Assembly: GCA_030266845.1 (NCBI GenBank)
Contig: JAJDIT010000007.1
Coordinates: 1 to 56,922 of the forward strand
Direction: 5' to 3'
DNA length: 56,922 nucleotides
Origin: Acholeplasma sp. OttesenSCG-928-E16
Lineage (GTDB): Bacteria > Bacillota_I > Bacilli_A > Acholeplasmatales > Acholeplasmataceae
Made by a program: the position numbers and the translations under genes
Shown here: piece by piece, positions 40,371 through 55,936 of the stretch
Layout: each line of letters begins with the position of its first letter
Numbering within the stretch: the stretch's first letter is position 1
The notes under the pieces: model-generated
The model's input: the letters and a program-made list of their open reading frames with translations, nothing else
Database searches by the model: none
Told to the model about the DNA's origin: nothing

Positions 40371-41669
40371 ATGATAGAGAAAACCAGACATATTCCAGAC
40401 GGGAAGGGCGAATTAAAGAAATTAGAGGTAGTTGAATATTTAAAAGCAGCTAAGCTTTTTTATCCTCTAACTAATTCTAGATGCTCTTTTGCTGAGGTAT
40501 TAATAGAAGAAGGACAGGAAGTAAAAGTTGGACAGATGCTTGGTATTAGAAAGGGATCTTTTTTTGATCAACCAATTCATTCAACAGTAAGCGGTAAATA
40601 TATTGGTAAAGAAAGACACTTAGACAATACAGGAAAAATGGTAGAGCACCTAGTGATTGAAAACAACTTTAAAGATGAAGTTGATTTAGGAATTAAAGCA
40701 AGATCAAACGATGAAATAAATTCTCTTGAACAAAAAGATTTTGTTGAAATAATGAAAAATAAAGCACTAGTTGGCCTAGGAGGGAGCGCATTTCCTACTT
40801 TCGTAAAATTTGATACGAATGAAAAAATAAATGTGATCATTGGAAATGGTGTTGAATGTGAACCATATTTAGTAAGCGATTATGACGTAATGCTGTTTCA
40901 AACAAGAGAGATGCTCCAAGGATTGGTGTATGCAATGAGAGCAGTTAATGCTCCACGAGGTATTATTGCCATCAAATCTAAATACGAAAAAGTTAATGAA
41001 GTAATTACAAAGATGATAGATGAAGAGTTTCCTAATTTAGGTTTAGAGGTTAAAAAAATCGGTAATTACTATCCTCAAGGTTGGGAATTGGAAGTAATCA
41101 AAAACGCTGTTGGGATTACTGTTCCACAAGGAGAATTGCCTGCTAAATACGGTGTGATAAATGTGAATGTCGCTACTTTGGTTAGCATCTATGAAGCAAT
41201 CAAAAATGATTTGCCAGTACTTACGAGATATTTTGTGATTAGTGGTGATGGAATTCAAAATAAAGCATTCAAGGTTAGACTTGGAACTCCCGTAAAAGAG
41301 TTAGTCGAATCGGTTGGTGGTTTTATTGATAATGGACAAAATAAGGTTTTAATCATTGGTGGGCCGATGATGGGAAGCAATGTCACTAGCGAAGATGTCA
41401 TTGTATCACATACGGTTTCGAGTCTTATTGTTTTAAATGAAGAACCAATTGTTGAATTACCTTGTTTAAGGTGCGCTTCTTGTGTATATTCTTGTCCTGC
41501 ATTACTACAACCAGTACAAATTATGAATGCATATAAAGCAAAAGACAAAGAAATGGCCGAGAAATTAGAAGTCTCAAAATGTATTGAGTGTGGAATGTGT
41601 TCCTACACATGTCCTTCAAGGATACCATTAACAGATTTCATGAAATTGGCTAAGAAATTAACGAAATAG
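40371..41669 (+). CDS. rnfC: Rnf complex subunit C
   Basis: RnfC is the peripheral NADH/FMN and Fe-S subunit that couples ferredoxin to NAD. The 432-residue protein has the Rossmann-type GLGGSAFPTFVKF and GNGVECEPYL region and two [4Fe-4S] motifs, CLRCASCVYSCP (about 365-376) and CIECGMCSYTCP (about 404-415). The ATG at 40371 has GGGAGG 7 nt upstream. The longer frame from 40272 would add 33 hydrophobic residues lacking in homologues. It opens the rnfC-D-G-G'-E-A-B cluster. Confidence 0.96.
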   Translation: MIEKTRHIPDGKGELKKLEVVEYLKAAKLFYPLTNSRCSFAEVLIEEGQEVKVGQMLGIRKGSFFDQPIHSTVSGKYIGKERHLDNTGKMVEHLVIENNFKDEVDLGIKARSNDEINSLEQKDFVEIMKNKALVGLGGSAFPTFVKFDTNEKINVIIGNGVECEPYLVSDYDVMLFQTREMLQGLVYAMRAVNAPRGIIAIKSKYEKVNEVITKMIDEEFPNLGLEVKKIGNYYPQGWELEVIKNAVGITVPQGELPAKYGVINVNVATLVSIYEAIKNDLPVLTRYFVISGDGIQNKAFKVRLGTPVKELVESVGGFIDNGQNKVLIIGGPMMGSNVTSEDVIVSHTVSSLIVLNEEPIVELPCLRCASCVYSCPALLQPVQIMNAYKAKDKEMAEKLEVSKCIECGMCSYTCPSRIPLTDFMKLAKKLTK

Positions 41670-41681
41670 GGGTATACAAAA

Positions 41682-42803
41682 ATGGAAGTTGTAAAAAAAA
41701 CCAGTCCTTATATAAGAAAAAAAGAAACAAGTACAACAAGAATGATGATAGATGTACTTATTTCGTTGTTGCCGGTGGTTGCATTTTCGGTCTATCGTTT
41801 TGGAACTGATGCGTTGATAAGAGTCATAGTCTCTATTACCGTTATGATAGCATTAGAAGTTTTAATGATTGGCTTTATTAAAACGCCAAAAGAAGCGGCA
41901 TCAAATAAGGCTTTAGAGGGAAATTTATGGACTAGATTTCTTGCAAGATATAAACATTTAAGAGCTAATAATTTTATAGCTCCAGCTGTAAGTGGAGTTA
42001 TATATGCGATGTTATTGCCAAGCACACTAAGCATATATGTATTGATAGTTGGTGCAATATTTGCTATTTTAGTTGGAAAAATGGTTTTTGGTGGATTTGG
42101 ACAAAACATTTTTAATCCAGCAGGATTAGGAAGAATATTTGTTGGAGCATTTTTTGGAGCTGCATTAACATATACACAAACAAATGATGTCATTGCTGGG
42201 GCAACACCATTGGGGCCTTTAAAAGATATGTTGACTGTAGGTTCCGCAAATGGAGGAGTTCAACAATTACTAACATACTATTCTTTTAATGATTTGTTTT
42301 TAGGGAACATTCCAGGTTCAATGGGAGAGATATCTAAACTTGCTATTATTATTGGTGGCATTTATCTAGTAGTTAGAAAAGCTGCGGATTTTAGAGTAAT
42401 GTTAAGTACAATTGGGGCATTTGCAATAATGATTCTTTTTGCGGGCATGGCATTAAATCCGGCAAATCCTTTTGAATTTTTACTTGCCCATTTATTAACC
42501 GGGGGGATTATCTTTGGAGCAGTTTATATGGTGACCGATCCAGTTACTTCTCCTGTAACAAAACCGGGCAGAGTACTATATGGAGTTATTATTGGTATCT
42601 TGGCTGCGTTGATAAGAATATTCGGATCAATGCCAGAAGGAATGGCATTTGCTATTATGATAGTTAATATGTTTGTACCGCTAATCGACTATTACAAATG
42701 GGCAAAACCGAAATACACATGGCAATTTGCAGTTGTTTTAGGAGCACTTATTTTAGTGTGTATACCTGTATTTTATTTCGCTGCAGGAGGTAATATAAAA
42801 TGA
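41682..42803 (+). CDS. rnfD: Rnf complex subunit D
   Basis: RnfD is a membrane subunit with covalent FMN and a likely ion path. The 373-residue protein has about 10 hydrophobic segments and the FMN-Thr motif DVIAGATPLGPL, with the attached residue at T175 (usually SGAT). The C-terminal VTDPVTSPVTKPGRVLYG is typical. The start lies 12 nt after rnfC; the ATG of rnfG overlaps its stop. Confidence 0.94.
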   Translation: MEVVKKTSPYIRKKETSTTRMMIDVLISLLPVVAFSVYRFGTDALIRVIVSITVMIALEVLMIGFIKTPKEAASNKALEGNLWTRFLARYKHLRANNFIAPAVSGVIYAMLLPSTLSIYVLIVGAIFAILVGKMVFGGFGQNIFNPAGLGRIFVGAFFGAALTYTQTNDVIAGATPLGPLKDMLTVGSANGGVQQLLTYYSFNDLFLGNIPGSMGEISKLAIIIGGIYLVVRKAADFRVMLSTIGAFAIMILFAGMALNPANPFEFLLAHLLTGGIIFGAVYMVTDPVTSPVTKPGRVLYGVIIGILAALIRIFGSMPEGMAFAIMIVNMFVPLIDYYKWAKPKYTWQFAVVLGALILVCIPVFYFAAGGNIK

Positions 42804-43840
42804 AAAAACTATTTTCCAATACTATTTTTAAAGCTACCTTTGTTTTGACTTGTGTTGCTTTGGGTTGTGCTTTATTAATTGCATTAGTCAATTTAGTAGC
42901 CGCCCCTGCAATAGCGGAAGGACAAAGACAAAGAGAAGTAGCTAGCTACAAAAGAGTTTTTTCCGATATGGAAGAATATGAGACTTTATATATGGATGAA
43001 TTGTTAGCTGATACAGCCGTTTGGCCATCTGGAGTTTCAAAAAAAGTGATAAAAGCATCAAAAGGTGATTCAGAACTAGTTGGTTATATCTATACTGTGC
43101 TTAAGAGTAATTCTTATGGAAATATCAAGTTGATTATTGGAATTGGAGCCGATAAAAAAATTGGTAATTACATAGAAATTTTAGAAAACGGACAAACAAG
43201 CGGTAGAAATGCCCAAGTTGTAAAACAAGTTGTCGAGTTTTATGGAGTTGATTATCGTGAACTAAACTCAGTTCAAAATGTCGGTGCGAACGCTACTAGA
43301 GCTTTTGAGACTATTACAGAAATTATGTTAGCAGCAGGTGAGGCATTTGAGGTTACTGTGGAAAATGATGGCAGCGGTTCAGATGATACGATAACCGAAA
43401 TAGATGAATCATTCACAAAAATCACAGAAGGAACAGTAGAGATTCAAGCTAAATATAATGTCAAAAAAGAAAATGAATTAATCGGATATGTATATGAAGT
43501 AGTAAACCAAGCAGTGTATCAAGAAGGATCCGAAGAACAAAAGAAGGTTGCCTTCAGTATAACGGTAGATAAAGAAATGAATATAACAGGTTACCATATT
43601 TTTAAGACAGAGACAGATGCAAGCGTAGATGGTGATTACTATGAACACACAAAAGGAAACAGAATAAAGACAGTAGAACAATTTATGGATGGAATGATAG
43701 GGAAAGCGTTAAGTGTGGTTGCAGGATATGGAACAACAGATTTTATAAATGGAACAGGAAACGCTAGTGCAACACTATCACAAACAGCAGTTTTAGATGC
43801 AATCAAGGTTTTATATAATAAAGTAGGGGGTGGGGAATAA
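42800..43840 (+). CDS. rnfG: Rnf subunit G-like protein with an extra FMN-binding domain
   Basis: A 346-residue protein with one N-terminal membrane segment (about 11-33). Residues about 40-185 form an RnfG-type domain, but its flavinylation motif reads NVGANATRAF, so the usual SGAT is degraded. A second FMN_bind-type domain (about 195-345) ends with GTGNASATLSQTAVLDAI; T325 is the likely FMN-bearing Thr. The DNA for the second domain (43382-43827) is almost identical to 44380-44825 in the next gene. Normal RnfG has one domain of about 200 residues, so the protein is enlarged. It overlaps rnfD and abuts the next gene. Confidence 0.85.
   Translation: MKKLFSNTIFKATFVLTCVALGCALLIALVNLVAAPAIAEGQRQREVASYKRVFSDMEEYETLYMDELLADTAVWPSGVSKKVIKASKGDSELVGYIYTVLKSNSYGNIKLIIGIGADKKIGNYIEILENGQTSGRNAQVVKQVVEFYGVDYRELNSVQNVGANATRAFETITEIMLAAGEAFEVTVENDGSGSDDTITEIDESFTKITEGTVEIQAKYNVKKENELIGYVYEVVNQAVYQEGSEEQKKVAFSITVDKEMNITGYHIFKTETDASVDGDYYEHTKGNRIKTVEQFMDGMIGKALSVVAGYGTTDFINGTGNASATLSQTAVLDAIKVLYNKVGGGE
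43382..43827 (+). repeat. 446-bp direct repeat, copy 1 (FMN-binding module)
   Basis: This segment is the same as 44380-44825 except for three substitutions I can see by eye. Two are silent (GCG/GCA and GTG/GTA) and one changes Asp to Glu. The repeat period is 998 bp. Confidence 0.97.
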
Positions 43841-44835
43841 TGTCTAAATTACTTAAAGATAAGAATTTCCTTATTTGGATTGGTAGCGCCCTTTTAGTTG
43901 TCATATTAACAATCGTTTTTATAATTTTATATAGTGGAGCATTTCCAGCGAATTTAAAAACTGATTTAGATAAATTTTTAAAAACTGAAGTAAAATTAGA
44001 AAATGGTGAAGCAGTTACAGGCGTTAATGATAATACTACTAAATATGAAATAACCGCTAAAAACAAAGATCTAGTAATATATGAAAGTAAGGGTTCTCAC
44101 GGATATGGAACTGTTGAAGTATGGGTCATAATCGATGGTGAAACCGTAAGCGCAGTCCCAAAAGAAATAAAAGAATCATATGGTAATACTAATTATGAAG
44201 TAAGTACTTATTATTTCATTGTTAACACTTTGCAGAATTTGAACTATAAAGAGATCGGTGAAATAAAAGAATTTGTATTAGCGGGGTCAACTACATCAGA
44301 AAGTAATGAAGCATCGGTTGTTATTGTTGCTAATGTTGTTAATAAGCACTTCGGTGATGATGAACCAACAGAAGAGCCTGATGATACGATAACCGAAATA
44401 GATGAATCATTCACAAAAATCACAGAAGGAACAGTAGAGATTCAAGCTAAATATAATGTCAAAAAAGAAAATGAATTAATCGGATATGTATATGAAGTAG
44501 TAAACCAAGCAGTGTATCAAGAAGGATCCGAAGAACAAAAGAAGGTTGCCTTCAGTATAACGGTAGATAAAGAAATGAATATAACAGGTTACCATATTTT
44601 TAAGACAGAGACAGATGCAAGCGTAGATGGTGATTACTATGAACACACAAAAGGAAACAGAATAAAGACAGTAGAACAATTTATGGATGGAATGATAGGG
44701 AAAGCATTAAGTGTAGTTGCAGGATATGGAACAACAGATTTTATAAATGGAACAGGAAACGCTAGTGCAACACTATCACAAACAGCAGTTTTAGAAGCAA
44801 TCAAGGTTTTATATAATAAAGTAGGAGGTAATTAA
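43840..44835 (+). CDS. Second FMN-binding Rnf accessory protein (RnfG paralogue)
   Basis: A 331-residue protein with one membrane segment (about 10-32). Its N-terminal domain (about 40-175) is unlike the preceding gene's but ends with LAGSTTSESNEASVVIVANVV, a SGAT-like flavinylation site. The C-terminal domain (about 180-330) is the repeated FMN_bind module with its own candidate T311. The ATG overlaps the last base of the rnfG stop. It may carry two flavins and extend the electron path of RnfG, or supply an alternative RnfG. Confidence 0.75.
   Translation: MSKLLKDKNFLIWIGSALLVVILTIVFIILYSGAFPANLKTDLDKFLKTEVKLENGEAVTGVNDNTTKYEITAKNKDLVIYESKGSHGYGTVEVWVIIDGETVSAVPKEIKESYGNTNYEVSTYYFIVNTLQNLNYKEIGEIKEFVLAGSTTSESNEASVVIVANVVNKHFGDDEPTEEPDDTITEIDESFTKITEGTVEIQAKYNVKKENELIGYVYEVVNQAVYQEGSEEQKKVAFSITVDKEMNITGYHIFKTETDASVDGDYYEHTKGNRIKTVEQFMDGMIGKALSVVAGYGTTDFINGTGNASATLSQTAVLEAIKVLYNKVGGN
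44380..44825 (+). repeat. 446-bp direct repeat, copy 2 (FMN-binding module)
   Basis: Partner of 43382-43827. The boundaries start exactly at GATGATACG, after different upstream linkers in the two genes, and end next to the ribosome site of the following gene. This indicates a recent tandem duplication or gene conversion. Confidence 0.97.
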
Positions 44836-44836
44836 A

Positions 44837-45523
44837 ATGACAGAAACAAATAACGTTAACGATCAAAAAGTTGTTAAAAAAGAAAAAAAATTACTTCCCA
44901 TTTTTACAAACGGAATAATCAAAGAGAATCAAATTCTTATTATGATGTTAGGGCTTTGTCCTGTTTTAGGAACGACCACTTCTTTAGAAGGGGGCTTTGG
45001 AATGGGAGTATTAACAATGTTAGTACTTGTAATGTCTAATGTGACAATTTCTCTAATTAGAAAAGTAGTTCCAGATCAAGTCAGAATTCCTTCTTATATT
45101 TTGATTATTGCTACAGAAGTGACAGTAATAGGATTACTAACTGAAGCTTTTGCATACGAATTATTTAGAACGCTAGGAACCTTTATACCTCTAATAACAG
45201 TTAATTGTATTATTTTTGGTCGAGCAGAGGCTTTTGCTTCTAAAAATTCGGTTGGACATGCTGCACTAGATGGACTAGGTGTTGGAATAGGCGTGATTTT
45301 GGTATTAAGTATTATGGGACTTTTTAGGGAATTACTAGGAACGGGTAATATTACAATAGGTGCATTATTACCGCTTGGTTTAGATAATCCTTTAGTTGCT
45401 AGAATAATTCCGGAAGACTATATTATTCCATTTTTTACTAGTTCTTCAGGGGCATTTATTGTGCTCGCCATCATGCTAGCGATAACGACCGTAGTAACGC
45501 AAACAAGGGGGGCTAAAAAATGA
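44837..45523 (+). CDS. rnfE: Rnf complex subunit E
   Basis: RnfE is a six-segment membrane subunit that with RnfA holds an intramembrane [2Fe-2S]. The 228-residue protein has Cys in GLCPVLGTTTS and in NCIIFGRAEAFAS, both at the expected places. It starts after GGAGG; its stop overlaps rnfA (ATGA). Confidence 0.95.
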   Translation: MTETNNVNDQKVVKKEKKLLPIFTNGIIKENQILIMMLGLCPVLGTTTSLEGGFGMGVLTMLVLVMSNVTISLIRKVVPDQVRIPSYILIIATEVTVIGLLTEAFAYELFRTLGTFIPLITVNCIIFGRAEAFASKNSVGHAALDGLGVGIGVILVLSIMGLFRELLGTGNITIGALLPLGLDNPLVARIIPEDYIIPFFTSSSGAFIVLAIMLAITTVVTQTRGAKK

Positions 45524-46224
45524 ATCCAGTAATTTTCTTTTCAGCAATCGGAAGTGCGATGTTAATCAATAACGTAATATTTCATTGGAACTGGGGAATC
45601 TGCTCTTTTGTAGGAGTATCGACTAAAATGAAACCAGCAGTAGGAATGAGTCTTGCCGTCATTGCAATAATGGTTTTGGCAACTGCTGTGACATATCCAA
45701 TTTACCAGCTTTTACTAGTTCCGCTACAAATCACATATATTAAAACAATTGTGTTTATATTAGTGATTGCCGTTTTAGTTCAATTAACAGAAATTTTATT
45801 AAAGAGATTCAATAATGGATTATATAAAACACTAGGTATTTATTTGCCATTAATAACAACTAATTGTGCTATTTTAGGGATTGCTGACATTGTTTCAATG
45901 AACTACTTGATTGAGTTAGACACATTAACAAAAGTATTAACTGATAGCGGAGTTGGAGCGTATTTTGATTTAATTATCGGAAATAGTGCCCTTTTTGGAA
46001 ATGGTTTTCTTAAGGCTCTTGCTGTAGCATTTGGTTCTGGACTAGGATTTGCCTTAGTAATGGTTTTATTTACTGCAATAAGAGTAAGATTAAATTCCGC
46101 TAATATTCCAAAAGCATTTAAAGGTGCTCCAATTTCATTCGTGATAGCAGGAATTATGGCGATCGCTTTTCTCGGCTTCGGAGGAATTTTCCCAGAAGTA
46201 TCAGAACTTTTAAAGAATTTTTAA
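45520..46224 (+). CDS. rnfA: Rnf complex subunit A (with an insertion)
   Basis: RnfA pairs with RnfE around a [2Fe-2S]. Cys residues are in NWGICSFVG and TTNCAILG. The 234 residues exceed the usual length of about 190. The excess is a stretch of about 35 residues (MNYLIELDTLTKVLTDSGVG and following) between two membrane segments. It overlaps rnfE. Confidence 0.93.
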   Translation: MNPVIFFSAIGSAMLINNVIFHWNWGICSFVGVSTKMKPAVGMSLAVIAIMVLATAVTYPIYQLLLVPLQITYIKTIVFILVIAVLVQLTEILLKRFNNGLYKTLGIYLPLITTNCAILGIADIVSMNYLIELDTLTKVLTDSGVGAYFDLIIGNSALFGNGFLKALAVAFGSGLGFALVMVLFTAIRVRLNSANIPKAFKGAPISFVIAGIMAIAFLGFGGIFPEVSELLKNF

Positions 46225-46225
46225 T

Positions 46226-46390
46226 ATGTGGCCAATTTTCGTAGCGATAGCAATCATTTTGATTCTTGCGGCCTTGTTTATCTTTTTATATACTAAAAAC
46301 TCAAAAATTGAAGTGCCAGAAGGATGCGAAGAATTAAGAAATGAGGCTTGCAGAGGATGTTCAATCGCTGAGAGCTGTAAGATTAAATAG
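46226..46390 (+). CDS. 54-residue Cys-rich membrane protein in the Rnf operon
   Basis: An ORF of 54 codons begins 1 nt after the rnfA stop. It has a single hydrophobic segment (about 3-22) and four Cys in the cytoplasmic tail, spaced C-x7-C-x2-C-x5-C (PEGCEELRNEACRGCSIAES then C). The spacing could bind one [4Fe-4S] or [2Fe-2S] cluster. It ends 15 nt before rnfB, which also starts with MW and one TM segment. It resembles small FeoB-associated Cys-rich membrane proteins in layout. A role as an electron relay next to the short RnfB is inference. Confidence 0.75.
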   Translation: MWPIFVAIAIILILAALFIFLYTKNSKIEVPEGCEELRNEACRGCSIAESCKIK

Positions 46391-46405
46391 GAGGAACGCA
46401 AAAGT

Positions 46406-46723
46406 ATGTGGTTTTTATGGACTGTAATAATTATTGGTGTTGTAGCCTTGATTTTTGGATTAGGACTAGGTTTTGCTAATAAATATTTTGAAGTGAAAGA
46501 AGATGAAAGAATTGCTGATATTGAGAAATTATTACCAGGATATAATTGCGGAGCCTGCGGGATGGCAGGATGTAAGGCTTTCGCCGAAGGAGTTATATCT
46601 GGACAAATAGATCAATTATCCAGATGCAAACCAGGTAAAAAAGATAAGAATTTTGAGCCTATCTTAGAATATCTAAAAAACCATCCTAATGAAGATGGTA
46701 GTGTACAAGAAATCAAATTATAA
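46406..46723 (+). CDS. rnfB: Short RnfB lacking ferredoxin domains
   Basis: RnfB normally has an N-terminal membrane segment, a CGxCGxxGCxxFA domain and two or more [4Fe-4S] ferredoxin domains (over 260 residues). This 105-residue protein has only the first two: TM at about 3-24, then YNCGACGMAGCKAFAEGVISG...LSRCKPG. The C-terminal ferredoxin repeats are missing, with no sign of a frameshift: the frame closes in TAA and apbE starts 6 nt later. A ribosome site GGAGG precedes the ATG. The small Cys protein upstream may compensate. Confidence 0.9.
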   Translation: MWFLWTVIIIGVVALIFGLGLGFANKYFEVKEDERIADIEKLLPGYNCGACGMAGCKAFAEGVISGQIDQLSRCKPGKKDKNFEPILEYLKNHPNEDGSVQEIKL

Positions 46724-46728
46724 ATAAT

Positions 46729-48435
46729 ATGAAAAAGATTGTTTCGATAATATCCATACTAATGATTTCAGTGATTGCTTTCGGGCAATCTTTTTCTGCT
46801 AATGAGGATATTTCGTGGCGCGATGGAAAATACTATTATTTTGGATCTGATGAGGACATAAGTAAATCTGTTACGGTAAGTTTATACGTATATACAGATG
46901 AAGAGACCTTTAACGGTTATTATAATGATATTGATCAGATTTTAAAGAGATATCACATCTTAACTAATAATAAAGTGGATTTAACAACAGGAGCCGAAAA
47001 CGGAGTTTATGATATCAATGAAAATCCAAATGAATGGGTAAGTATTCCTAAAGACTTGTATGATTTACTAGAAGATTGTCAACAATATTCAACCGAAACA
47101 AACGGACTGTTTGATATTACAATTGGTAATGTAATTGATCTATGGAAAGAAGCGATAGATAATAATTTTTTTGACACTATATCACAAGAGGATTTTCAAA
47201 AATTGATAACAGACGTCGAAAATCTTAAGGAAAACTTTCCAAAAGAAGAACGACTGGTCTTAAAAGAAGAAAGCGACTTTTTTTATGCAAAAATAAAGAG
47301 TAATGTAAAATTAGATTTAGGAGCTATTTCCAAAGGATATGCTATTCAAAAAGCGAAAGAATATCTAGTGACAAAAGGAGTCGTTTATTACCAAATAAAT
47401 GCTGGAGCAAGTTCGATCAACCTCGGTAAATTTATTAATAGGGATGGAGTAACTTCTGGTTTTAGTGTCACGCTAACCGATCCGTTTTCCCCCTTCTCTA
47501 ATTATGGGCAATTCCTGAATGTTGCTGATTTATCGGTTACTACAAGCGGTAATAACAACCAATACTTTTTGTTTAACGGAAGAAGATATCACCACATCAT
47601 CTCTCCTTTAACATTTATGCCAACCATAGGTATATCATCTGTGACTATAGTTGGAGAAAATTCATCAGAGTTAGATGCTTTTTCCACGGCTGTTTTTTCA
47701 ATGGAAATAAATGAGGCTATTGGATTTTTAAAAAACAAAGGATATAGTTATTCAATGTACAAAGATGATGGTTCTTTATCGGTGGACGTAAAAAATGGAA
47801 TAACTTTTAAAGAGAACGAGGAAAGAGAAAAGCCTAATGGTTCTTCAGATAATCCAAGCGACTTTCATTACGGAAATTGGATTTTAATTGGTATAATTTC
47901 TCTTGTTTCCATCGTTTTATTAACAGTATCAATAAAGTTTATCATAAAGATTACTAAACAGATTAAAATGGGCGATCTCAAACAACAGGAACAAAAAGAA
48001 GAACCGAAGATCAAAAAATCAACAATAAGAGATATTATAATGGTTGCATCCTTGACGATTTTAATTGGGGCCATATTTGGGATTTATTCATTATGGCCAA
48101 AATATGTTTTTGATTATGTAAGAATTAGAAAGAACAATGAAATCATCGCTGAAATTGACTACAAAATTCAAACAGTTAATATTCCGAGCACAGAAAGTAA
48201 TAATGACTTAAACATTACATATGATGTTAGTCAATCGCAGATCATTATCAAAGAAAAACACGGTGAGGAAGAACACATAATAATGATTGTCGGGTTTGAT
48301 TTTTCCAGTAAAACAGCATGGGTAATTGAAGCTAATTGCTCGGATCAATCCTGCGTTAAAATAGGAACAATTCGCGATTCTAGTAAGACAATTATTTGTC
48401 TACCCAATGGAATTCAAATAAGGTTTGAGGAATAA
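46729..48435 (+). CDS. ApbE-type FMN transferase fused to a NusG domain II module
   Basis: The 568-residue protein starts with a signal-like segment (about 4-20). An ApbE domain follows (about 25-365) with LDLGAISKGYAIQKAKEYL, AGASSINLG, TTSGNNNQYFLFNGRRYHHII and DAFSTAVFSM, which transfers FMN to Thr of RnfG/RnfD-type proteins. Two membrane segments (about 383-405 and 436-458) come next. The C-terminal domain of about 105 residues reads AWVIEANCSDQSCVKIG and ICLPNGIQIRFE, which matches the NusG_II family. NusG_II is usually a separate gene beside the Gx transporter gene, as here. The ApbE part likely flavinylates the FMN modules encoded at 42800-44835. Confidence 0.85.
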   Translation: MKKIVSIISILMISVIAFGQSFSANEDISWRDGKYYYFGSDEDISKSVTVSLYVYTDEETFNGYYNDIDQILKRYHILTNNKVDLTTGAENGVYDINENPNEWVSIPKDLYDLLEDCQQYSTETNGLFDITIGNVIDLWKEAIDNNFFDTISQEDFQKLITDVENLKENFPKEERLVLKEESDFFYAKIKSNVKLDLGAISKGYAIQKAKEYLVTKGVVYYQINAGASSINLGKFINRDGVTSGFSVTLTDPFSPFSNYGQFLNVADLSVTTSGNNNQYFLFNGRRYHHIISPLTFMPTIGISSVTIVGENSSELDAFSTAVFSMEINEAIGFLKNKGYSYSMYKDDGSLSVDVKNGITFKENEEREKPNGSSDNPSDFHYGNWILIGIISLVSIVLLTVSIKFIIKITKQIKMGDLKQQEQKEEPKIKKSTIRDIIMVASLTILIGAIFGIYSLWPKYVFDYVRIRKNNEIIAEIDYKIQTVNIPSTESNNDLNITYDVSQSQIIIKEKHGEEEHIIMIVGFDFSSKTAWVIEANCSDQSCVKIGTIRDSSKTIICLPNGIQIRFEE

Positions 48436-48436
48436 A

Positions 48437-48961
48437 ATGAATAAGAAAAATCATCAGTTTATAAAAAAAATCGCTACCCTTAGTATCTTGTTAGCTGCCG
48501 GTATTGTATTAAACATAGTGGATGCTATTATTCCTATGCCATTTGGGTTTAGACTTGGATTGGCAAACGTCGTTGGATTGTTTGTTTTATATGTTTTTGG
48601 GTTTAAAGAAGCTATCATACTTTCATTACTTAGAATAGTGATTGCTAACCTACTTAGGGGGTTAGAGTTTAATACATTTATGATGGCGCTAACTGGAGGT
48701 ATAATATCGATGACTATCATGTGGGGGCTAAAAAAAATAACTCCATTTGGAATAGTTGTAATAAGTACCATTGGGGCGATTTTTCACTCAGCAGGCCAAT
48801 TACTTGTAGCGATGTGGCTTCTTGCCTCTTCAGAAGTGATGACGATGCTCCCAATAATGCTGTTGACCGCTATCCCAACCGGGATTTTAATTGGTATCAT
48901 TGCGGATCGAATTATTAAGGTATATCAAGGTAATAAAAAAATAGATATAAATAACTTGTAA
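48437..48961 (+). CDS. Gx transporter family protein (Hpre_diP_synt_I-like)
   Basis: The 174-residue protein has about five hydrophobic segments and the signatures NIVDAIIPMPFGFRLGLANVVGLF and GLEFNTFMMALTGG, which match the PF07456-type family often next to NusG_II and Rnf genes. The family was named for heptaprenyl diphosphate synthase component I, but the fold looks like an ECF substrate-binding component. The substrate is unknown. The ATG at 48437 follows GAGGAA. Confidence 0.8.
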   Translation: MNKKNHQFIKKIATLSILLAAGIVLNIVDAIIPMPFGFRLGLANVVGLFVLYVFGFKEAIILSLLRIVIANLLRGLEFNTFMMALTGGIISMTIMWGLKKITPFGIVVISTIGAIFHSAGQLLVAMWLLASSEVMTMLPIMLLTAIPTGILIGIIADRIIKVYQGNKKIDINNL

Positions 48962-54084: not shown

Positions 54085-55936
54085 ATGAAGAAAGTTATAG
54101 TAGTTGGTGGTGGCCACGCGGGAATTGAGGCCGCTTTAGTATTAGCAAAAATGAATATCGATGTAACACTTGTAACAGGCGACCTTGATAAGGTCGCTAC
54201 TTTACCATGCAATCCATCTATTGGTGGCCCAGCAAAGGGAATTGTTGTTAGGGAGATTGATGCTCTAGGCGGTCAGATGGCCAAAAGCGCAGATTTTGCA
54301 GCTTTACAAATAAAGATGCTCAATTCTTCTAAAGGACCTGCCGTAAGGGCGTTGAGAGCTCAAATTGATAAAATAGAATATCCAAAATACATGCTTTCGA
54401 TTCTCAAAAATACCGAAAATTTAAAACTTGTTGAGGGATATGTAGATAAATTGATTATTAAAAATCACAAAATAGAAGGCGTCATTTTGGAAGACGGAAA
54501 AGAGATATTATCTAATGCAGTTATTTTAACTACTGGAACCTATTTAAATAGTAAAATTCTTATTGGAGACAAGACGATAACAAGCGGTCCCAATGGTGAA
54601 AAAACAACTAAAGGGATTAGTGATCAATTAAAAGAAATAGGTTTTGAAATTATTAGACTGAAAACCGGAACTCCTCCGAGATTAGCGAAAGATAGTGTTA
54701 TAGTAGCTGATTTGGTTGCTCAATATGGAGATGATAAAAAGCAATCATTTTGTTATGAAAGCGAGAATGGCATTTATAAAAACGTACCTTGTTATCTCAC
54801 ATACACCAGTAAGGAAACTCACGAAATAATAAATAACAACATTTCAAAATCAGCGATGTATAGCGGTAATGTTAAGGGAGTAGGACCTAGATATTGCCCT
54901 TCTATTGAAGATAAGATCGTAAGATTTAAAGACAAGGAAAGACATCAAATTTTTCTAGAACCAGAAAGTCTAAAAAATAGATGAGTATTATATACAAGGG
55001 TTGTCTACAAGCATGCCCGAAGATATACAAGAAAAAATGGTTCATTCAATACATGGATTAGAAAATGCTACCATCAGAAAGGCAGCTTACGCTATCGAAT
55101 ATGATGCGATAAATCCGCTGCAATTATCTGCGAATTTAGAATCGAAAATGATTGAAAATTTATTTTTTGCTGGGCAGATTAATGGGACAAGTGGTTATGA
55201 AGAGGCAGCTGGACAAGGAATTATGGCAGGGATAAATGCTTGCCTTAAACTGAACAAAAAAGAGCCATTCATTTTAAGAAGAGATGAGGCTTATATAGGG
55301 GTTTTGATTGATGATCTAGTTACGAAGGGAACGAAAGAACCTTATAGACTTTTGACTTCAAGAGCGGAATTTAGACTACTATTAAGACATGATAATGCTG
55401 ACTTAAGGCTTGGAGAATACGGGTACAAGTATGGTCTCGTCAGTGAAGAAAAGTATACAAGGCTTTGCAACAAAAAAGACAGAATAAATGAACTAATAGA
55501 TTATGCTAGAAAAAACTATGTAGAACCCAGTGAAGTCAATAACGAAATACTTTTGAATATTGGCTCATCAACGATTACAAACAGAACAATAATTGAAAAC
55601 ATTATCAAAAGACCAGAGGTTTCATCAAGCATCTTGTCATATTTTTTTGATGAGGATGATAAAGACATCTTAGAACAAGTTGAACTACAGATAAAATATG
55701 ACGGATACATAAAAAAATCTTTTAGAGATGCCGAGAAATTAAAAAGATTAGAAATGAAAGCAATTCCGAGTCAATTAGACTATGACAAAATTTCTAATAT
55801 TTCTTCAGAAGCAAGGGAAAAATTGAAGAAAGTAAACCCATTGACTATTGGACAGGCTTCTAGAATTTTGGGTGTGAACCCAACAGATATTTTGATTCTT
55901 TCATTATATATAGAAGCGGGGAGGCATAAAGAATGA
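54085..55936 (+). pseudogene. mnmG: mnmG split by a one-base frameshift
   Basis: MnmG (GidA), with MnmE, modifies U34 of tRNAs. The first frame (54085-54984) has the FAD motif [27 protein letters not shown] and [13 protein letters not shown], and stops after LEPESLKNR. The second frame (to 55936) has QGLSTSMPEDIQ, GQINGTSGYEEAAGQG and LLTSRAEFRLLLRHDNADLRLGEYGYKYG. Removing one A from the run of six at 54972-54977 joins them as [18 protein letters not shown], the expected family sequence, giving about 616 residues. Its end overlaps rsmG by 4 nt. It may be a real frameshift, a slippage site or a sequencing error. Confidence 0.9.

Follow-up and report, generated by a model that had tools for sequence, protein, structure and literature searches.

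An Acholeplasma Rnf gene cluster with a minimal RnfB and a conserved small cysteine-motif gene between rnfA and rnfB

Minimal RnfB in described Rnf complexes and in the Acholeplasma locus

The RnfB of T. maritima is a 10.56 kDa protein for which a single 4Fe-4S centre is predicted (Kuhns et al. 2020, PMC7414866), shortened to the FdI domain only (Vitt et al. 2022, PMC9588780), and the purified T. maritima Rnf oxidises C. pasteurianum ferredoxin and transports Na+ (PMC7414866). Since the C-terminal ferredoxin domain of RnfB is absent from this active complex, it is not a required feature of Rnf. Across the structures compared, that domain carries two to seven further 4Fe-4S clusters (PMC12174285). 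The domain retained in a minimal RnfB is the one feeding RnfA/E (PMC12174285, PMC11889175); in A. woodii this domain, there called B8, has essential cysteines and supplies electrons to the [2Fe-2S] cluster of RnfA/E (PMC11889175).

The window analysed here is a stretch of 56,922 nucleotides from a draft genome of Acholeplasma sp. OttesenSCG-928-E16 (1.13 Mb, 86% complete, 34 contigs). The nearest named relatives by RnfB are uncultured Bacilli that bear the label Acholeplasma or Acholeplasmataceae, with an RnfB identity of 58%. RnfC, D, G, E, A and B are all encoded together on the forward strand of the window in the order rnfC-D-G-G-E-A-small gene-rnfB, followed by an apbE-NusG_II fusion and a Gx-transporter/Hpre_diP_synt_I gene. 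The NADH/FMN subunit gene rnfC (40371-41669) matched the Pfam models Complex1_51K, RnfC_N, SLBB and Fer4_10 and TIGR01945 above cut-off (E 2e-95), and its product harbors two 4Fe-4S motifs, CLRCASCVYSC and CIECGMCSYTC. The product of rnfD (41682-42803), the flavin-carrying membrane subunit, matched PF03116 (E 8.9e-87) and TIGR01946 above cut-off and carries AGATPL, a flavinylation-type motif. In NQR, NqrF with its FAD and 2Fe-2S centres stands in place of RnfB, and the RnfC-type FeS and FMN sites are lost in NqrA; the present cluster has no NqrF, and its RnfC retains both 4Fe-4S motifs and the FMN domain.

Two rnfG-like genes lie in tandem. The first (42800-43840, 346 aa, about two FMN-binding-type regions) matched the rnfG model TIGR01947 weakly and below cut-off (E 2e-5) and is named on its position and its tandem partner; the second (43840-44835, 331 aa) is nearly identical to the first in its C-terminal region. 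They share a perfect direct repeat of 300 nt (43382-43681 and 44380-44679), which can be extended to about 450 nt with 3 mismatches (43382-43827 and 44380-44825) and may represent a recent duplication, gene conversion or an assembly artefact. The next gene, rnfE (44837-45523), matched TIGR01948 above cut-off, and rnfA (45520-46224) matched PF02508 (E 8e-44) and TIGR01943 (E 5e-56), the latter at 190.1 bits, below the cut-off of 229.3. All four ligands of the membrane [2Fe-2S] cluster are present, C28 and C116 in RnfA and C41 and C124 in RnfE. Downstream of rnfB, an apbE flavin transferase gene fused to transmembrane helices and a NusG_II domain (46729-48435; PF02424, E 1.2e-48; PF07009, E 2.8e-12) is followed by the Gx-transporter/Hpre_diP_synt_I membrane protein gene (48437-48961; PF07456, E 3.9e-37), a usual neighbour of the cluster. 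Elsewhere in the window, a gidA/mnmG-like gene is apparently split near 54990 into ORFs of 299 aa (54085-54984) and 311 aa (55001-55936), possibly by a frameshift in the draft.

The rnfB gene (46406-46723) has an ATG start with GGAGG 5' of it and codes for 105 aa, made up of a transmembrane helix, the FeS (FdI/B8) domain and a tail. PF04060 (residues 43-76, E 7.5e-12) was the only Pfam domain found and no Fer4 domain was matched; cysteines 48, 51, 56 and 74 lie in the FeS domain and the tail of 31 residues is free of cysteine. The protein covers positions 7-82 of the 190 positions of the rnfB model TIGR01944 and scores 63.6 bits, just below the cut-off of 68.7, and the PDB RnfB chains 7zc6_B, 9eri_B and 8ahx_B align with it only through the N-terminal 75 residues of those chains. 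In an AlphaFold2 model (pLDDT 86.8) a single long helix leads into a small, helical Fe-S domain, and Foldseek gave A. woodii RnfB (9eri_B) as the best but weak match to this model (E 9e-3), with CFeSP 4Fe-4S domains next. The first-pass annotation, which had described RnfB as a membrane segment plus the N-terminal Fe-S domain, lacking the ferredoxin domains, is thus supported. Its statement that C, D, G, E and A are of normal or larger size holds for C, D, E and A, which are complete, but understates the two tandem rnfG-like genes, and apbE does adjoin rnfB as it said, although at a spacing of 5 nt and not 6.

The locus shares with T. maritima Rnf the order rnfCDGEAB, an RnfB of roughly 100 residues bearing only one 4Fe-4S motif and an otherwise complete complex. 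It differs in the tandem rnfG-like genes, the apbE-NusG_II fusion and the small gene, no counterpart of this last gene being reported for T. maritima in PMC7414866; the T. maritima genome carries RseC. The Rnf complexes of A. woodii and Clostridium tetanomorphum (9eri, 7zc6) resemble the window complex in the RnfB transmembrane helix and B8/FdI domain, in the RnfA/E [2Fe-2S] ligands and in the cofactor motifs of RnfC and RnfD; their RnfB proteins have an extra C-terminal 4Fe-4S domain, whereas the window RnfB has none. The minimal RnfB is therefore a known working version and not a new kind, and the earlier view of it as a clean departure from textbook Rnf does not stand beside the equally minimal active form of T. 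maritima.

Among 101 loci with a relative of RnfB, 96 encode a short protein (87-121 aa), and every one of these carries the motif Cx2Cx4Cx(13-22)C, its last cysteine followed by a tail of some 30 residues; the check for short homologues and their cysteine motifs proposed in the first-pass annotation thus came out in favour of the short form. The other five loci encode a long RnfB (257-288 aa) and belong to one member of the Clostridia, two Actinomycetota and two Margulisiibacteriota. In the 61 closest genomes the RnfB frames have about 102-131 residues, except for one fragment of 58 residues, and for 149 genomes drawn evenly across the phylum most of the listed hits of the rnfB model's N-terminal half lie in open frames of about 90-135 residues. 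Four long RnfB proteins (260-267 aa) were found within the phylum (L199, L201, L202 and L203). Some Bacilli genomes (G149, G170, G080 and G103) carry two or more short rnfB genes and thus probably several Rnf complexes.

Although the genome is a draft in 34 contigs, the chance that the window RnfB was shortened by an assembly or sequencing error is practically nil: dozens of independent genomes share its length and stop region, and apbE follows at once. This recurrence likewise speaks against an assembly fault in the relatives, the case named earlier as one that would overturn the finding, and agrees with the claim that no reading frame was lost 3' of rnfB. Relocation of the ferredoxin domain to a neighbouring gene was rejected, no Fer4 ORF other than rnfC being present in the cluster, in the window or in the relatives' loci that were read.

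The small gene between rnfA and rnfB

The gap upstream of rnfB (46225-46405), which the first-pass annotation had passed over, contains a conserved small gene (46226-46390, MWPIFVAIAIILILAALFIFLYTKNSKIEVPEGCEELRNEACRGCSIAESCKIK) coding for 54 aa. Its product has one predicted transmembrane helix followed by basic residues and a short tail with the pattern C-x8-C-x2-C-x5-C (C34, C43, C46 and C52); as predicted, the tail is probably cytoplasmic, like that of RnfB. A gene of this type was found at the rnfA-rnfB place in 75 of the 101 loci by script, and a profile added two more (L078 and L079), so that it is present in 77/96 short-RnfB loci and in 0/5 long-RnfB loci; in a second draw, whose genomes partly overlap, 23 of 26 rnfB loci had it. 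The consensus is a transmembrane helix, then N-x-K-T-P-x-P-x-G-C-E and then CxxC...C. CxxC with one further cysteine occurs in 87 of 89 distinct members, while the upstream cysteine is absent in 17/89 and the protein of L005/L022 has CxxC only. The median dN/dS of the small gene was 0.072 (n=29 pairs), likewise 0.072 for rnfB. The small gene is a real coding gene under purifying selection; its position, motif and dN/dS reject a chance frame, and no RNA structure was detected in the rnfA-rnfB gap (z 1.5).

When 392 genomes of the phylum were searched with the small-gene profile, 115 of 149 RnfD-positive genomes matched, compared with 3 of 243 RnfD-negative ones (Fisher p 2e-63, not corrected for phylogeny). 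In the host's phylum the small gene thus occurs almost only with Rnf. The 34 RnfD-positive genomes that did not match include RnfB-less genomes and the four with long RnfB, as well as genomes with divergent small genes beyond the reach of the profile (L205 and L101); all nine long-RnfB genomes examined (9/9) were devoid of the small gene. In many Acholeplasmatales the gene lies off the rnf cluster, in a constant position flanked by aspS/thiF-like and dCMP-deaminase genes (L177-L188). In genomes with several rnf clusters, extra copies were seen beside pyruvate dehydrogenase genes such as pdhA (L153, L155 and L156), and one (L152) near genes for a heavy-metal-domain protein and a two-component system.

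The small protein has no match at cut-off in Pfam, NCBIfam or PDB. The model of the FeoB-associated Cys-rich membrane proteins (PF12669), which are similar in having one transmembrane helix and a short Cys-rich tail, matched below cut-off (11.8 bits for the window protein against a cut-off of 27; best E value among 22 members 0.0029), and the context of the small gene is Rnf, not FeoB. RseC, a membrane protein, is an interaction partner of Rsx/Rnf that E. coli requires to reduce SoxR and C. ljungdahlii requires for autotrophy (PMC11729352, PMC9124969); in the RseC motif CX5CX2CX5C the first cysteine is dispensable and the CxxCx5C part can hold an oxygen-labile Fe-S cluster (PMC11729352). The small protein, likewise a small membrane protein tied to Rnf, has a CxxCx5C with an optional upstream cysteine that matches this motif. 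In architecture the two differ: RseC has an N-terminal Cys domain, two transmembrane helices and about 140-160 aa, whereas the small protein has 54 aa with one transmembrane helix first and the Cys tail after it. Homology to RseC/MucC was not supported, since HHalign gave a probability of 4-5%, and PF04246 did not match the window protein; among 22 family members it hit two, with E values no better than 1.7. By analogy, the small protein may resemble RseC in role, and membership of that family is not claimed.

RseC gave only two above-cut-off matches in the 392 phylum genomes. It is present in three short-RnfB genomes of spirochaetes and Brevinematales that have no small gene, and in T. maritima, which served as the control of the RseC search. 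A strict alternation between RseC and the small gene fails, since neither was found in the long-RnfB members of the phylum examined, and a few short-RnfB loci, such as L081, also have neither. An accessory role of the small protein is therefore not universal, some short-RnfB and long-RnfB members doing without the small gene or RseC.

Another reading makes the small protein a redox subunit, whose Cys cluster would serve as an added relay or docking site between the carrier and RnfB in place of the lost ferredoxin domains. The adjacency of its gene to rnfB, its company with short RnfB and not with long RnfB in the genomes of the phylum examined, and the topology predicted above are all compatible with such a relay, as is a profile comparison with RnfB that gave a probability of 93% over the transmembrane helix and CxxCx(3-6)C. 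That probability, however, drops to 32% once the transmembrane helix is removed, and the variable cysteines described above make the ligands less strict than a relay would lead one to expect; in addition, spirochaete short RnfB proteins manage without the small protein and the small gene is unlinked from rnf in several Acholeplasmatales. We regard this relay, the chief competitor of the accessory role, as unlikely. The profile probability derives largely from the transmembrane helix, and the small protein could perhaps be a degenerate copy of RnfB.

Related clusters that have lost RnfB

The RnfA ligand cysteines are conserved in 124/125 and 125/125 and the RnfE ligand cysteines in 108/118 (the others being gaps or X) and 117/118 of the RnfB-bearing loci. 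Five members of the same family (G013, G011, G003, G016 and G034; L192-L196) carry instead rnfC-D-G-G-E-A-apbE clusters with neither rnfB nor the small gene. These clusters share their genomic place, with ppa and yebC upstream and rpmE and tdk downstream, and the Gx-transporter/Hpre_diP_synt_I gene adjoins them as well. None of the four RnfA/E ligand positions is a cysteine in them, while both RnfC 4Fe-4S motifs are retained and GAT-type flavinylation motifs survive in RnfD. In a second family, f8 (L197 and L198; G072 and G115), RnfB, the small gene and cysteines at the RnfA ligand positions are also missing, and in L197 at most one RnfE cysteine lies near the expected place; here too RnfC has retained its Fe-S motifs. 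Directly upstream of rnfC, the f8 clusters encode a predicted lipoprotein of 149 aa (L197:10114-10563 and L198:2841-3290) that by eye resembles flavin-binding lipoproteins of extracellular electron transfer.

RnfB and the acceptor cluster of RnfA/E are thus kept or lost together, in a natural co-loss in sister genera. This joint retention and loss indicates that the short RnfB of the window is in use, and the four intact RnfA/E cysteines indicate that the usual electron route into the window complex is open. The RnfB-less relatives themselves may export electrons from NADH to the outside. They resemble in this respect the NQR/RNF-like single-path systems (PMC8238504), part-complexes that carry electrons of NAD(P)H to a flavin outside the cytosol, although those systems consist of two subunits with an NqrF-type domain fused to RnfD, whereas the RnfB-less relatives retain RnfC and degenerate RnfA and RnfE. 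An NQR of Acholeplasma is mentioned in PMC6256511 and might be such an RnfB-less cluster derived from Rnf.

Export of NADH electrons through RnfC, RnfD and RnfG to an outside acceptor, instead of pumping driven from ferredoxin to NAD+, could also be proposed for the window cluster, since its two RnfG-like proteins contain as many as four FMN-binding-type regions, multi-flavin RnfG has been proposed to offer electrons a second way out (PMC8238504), and the sister genera without RnfB or the RnfA/E cysteines retain exactly RnfC-D-G-G-E-A-ApbE at the same locus. The intact and conserved RnfB and RnfA/E cysteines nevertheless show that the inward half of the window complex has been kept, and export could be an added rather than a replacing function; for the window, replacement by export is very improbable.

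A broader reading takes the small protein as an undescribed Rnf subunit or dedicated assembly factor of the Bacilli needed by short RnfB, and couples it to an evolution of Rnf in three stages: first a long RnfB and no small gene, then a short RnfB accompanied by the small gene, and finally forms that have shed RnfB, the small gene and the RnfA/E cluster at once, which would leave an NADH-driven electron exporter. This reading is tentative, and we would put it at slightly below even odds.

Electron donor, proposed working and meaning

The host encodes a PFOR (1173 aa, L190), HydABC-type hydrogenase genes (585, 600 and 122 aa, L189) and a flavodoxin of 149 aa (L191). Searches with PF00037 and PF12838 did not detect a stand-alone 2[4Fe-4S] ferredoxin in the 86%-complete assembly; Fer4 proteins do exist elsewhere in the genome, namely RnfC, PFOR, hydrogenase subunits, a fusion of 1112 aa and one frame of 389 aa. 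The 1112-aa protein (L107:137-3475, host contig C7) has an N-terminal Fer4/FeS hydrogenase-like part and, by eye, a sensor, a histidine kinase and two receiver regions on its C-terminal side, and is perhaps a sensor of H2 or redox state.

The first-pass annotation had concluded that either another protein feeds electrons into the complex or a donor other than ferredoxin is used. The lack of a separate small ferredoxin among the host's Fer4 proteins would agree with a donor other than ferredoxin or flavodoxin, or with a feeder protein that carries the missing domains. That choice is, however, not forced, given the T. maritima precedent and the role of the B8/FdI domain: the minimal RnfB of T. 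maritima works with ferredoxin, the RnfA/E cysteines are intact, none of the relatives' loci that were read has a Fer4 gene accompanying the cluster, relatives show stand-alone ferredoxin-size frames of 58-94 residues, and the host assembly is only 86% complete. What survives of the earlier idea is a candidate, the overlooked small Cys protein; an unusual donor or feeder is improbable, and the donor of the host Rnf is most likely ferredoxin or flavodoxin.

The reading we prefer, with a probability of about 0.68, is that the locus encodes a functional Rnf with a minimal RnfB and that the 54-aa protein works with it, most likely as an RseC-like accessory. A soluble low-potential carrier, ferredoxin or flavodoxin, would pass its electrons straight to the one [4Fe-4S] cluster in the short RnfB, instead of entering by the extra clusters of longer RnfB proteins, and the mobile RnfB domain would then hand them to the [2Fe-2S] cluster that lies in the membrane between RnfA and RnfE. 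From there electrons would pass through RnfG and RnfD to RnfC and NAD+, driving ion export; the direction of electron flow, the pumping and the ion are those we infer for the host Rnf. The 54-aa protein would be a membrane-anchored, cytoplasmic and probably Fe-S or metal-binding factor that helps to build or stabilise the input side formed by RnfB and RnfA/E.

The short RnfB itself was already known; new here are the conserved small Cys gene and the co-loss in sister genera. As the minimal form shows, Rnf can dispense with the additional RnfB clusters, and this form prevails throughout a large group of Bacilli from gut and sediment, most of them uncultured. Because it is so widespread there, automatic annotation at the TIGR01944 cut-off of 68.7 bits will often miss RnfB in these organisms. 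The small gene offers a concrete candidate for a subunit or accessory of Rnf, in a class whose best-studied member, RseC, has a disputed function. The RnfB-less relatives are a natural source of evidence on the interdependence of the Rnf components.
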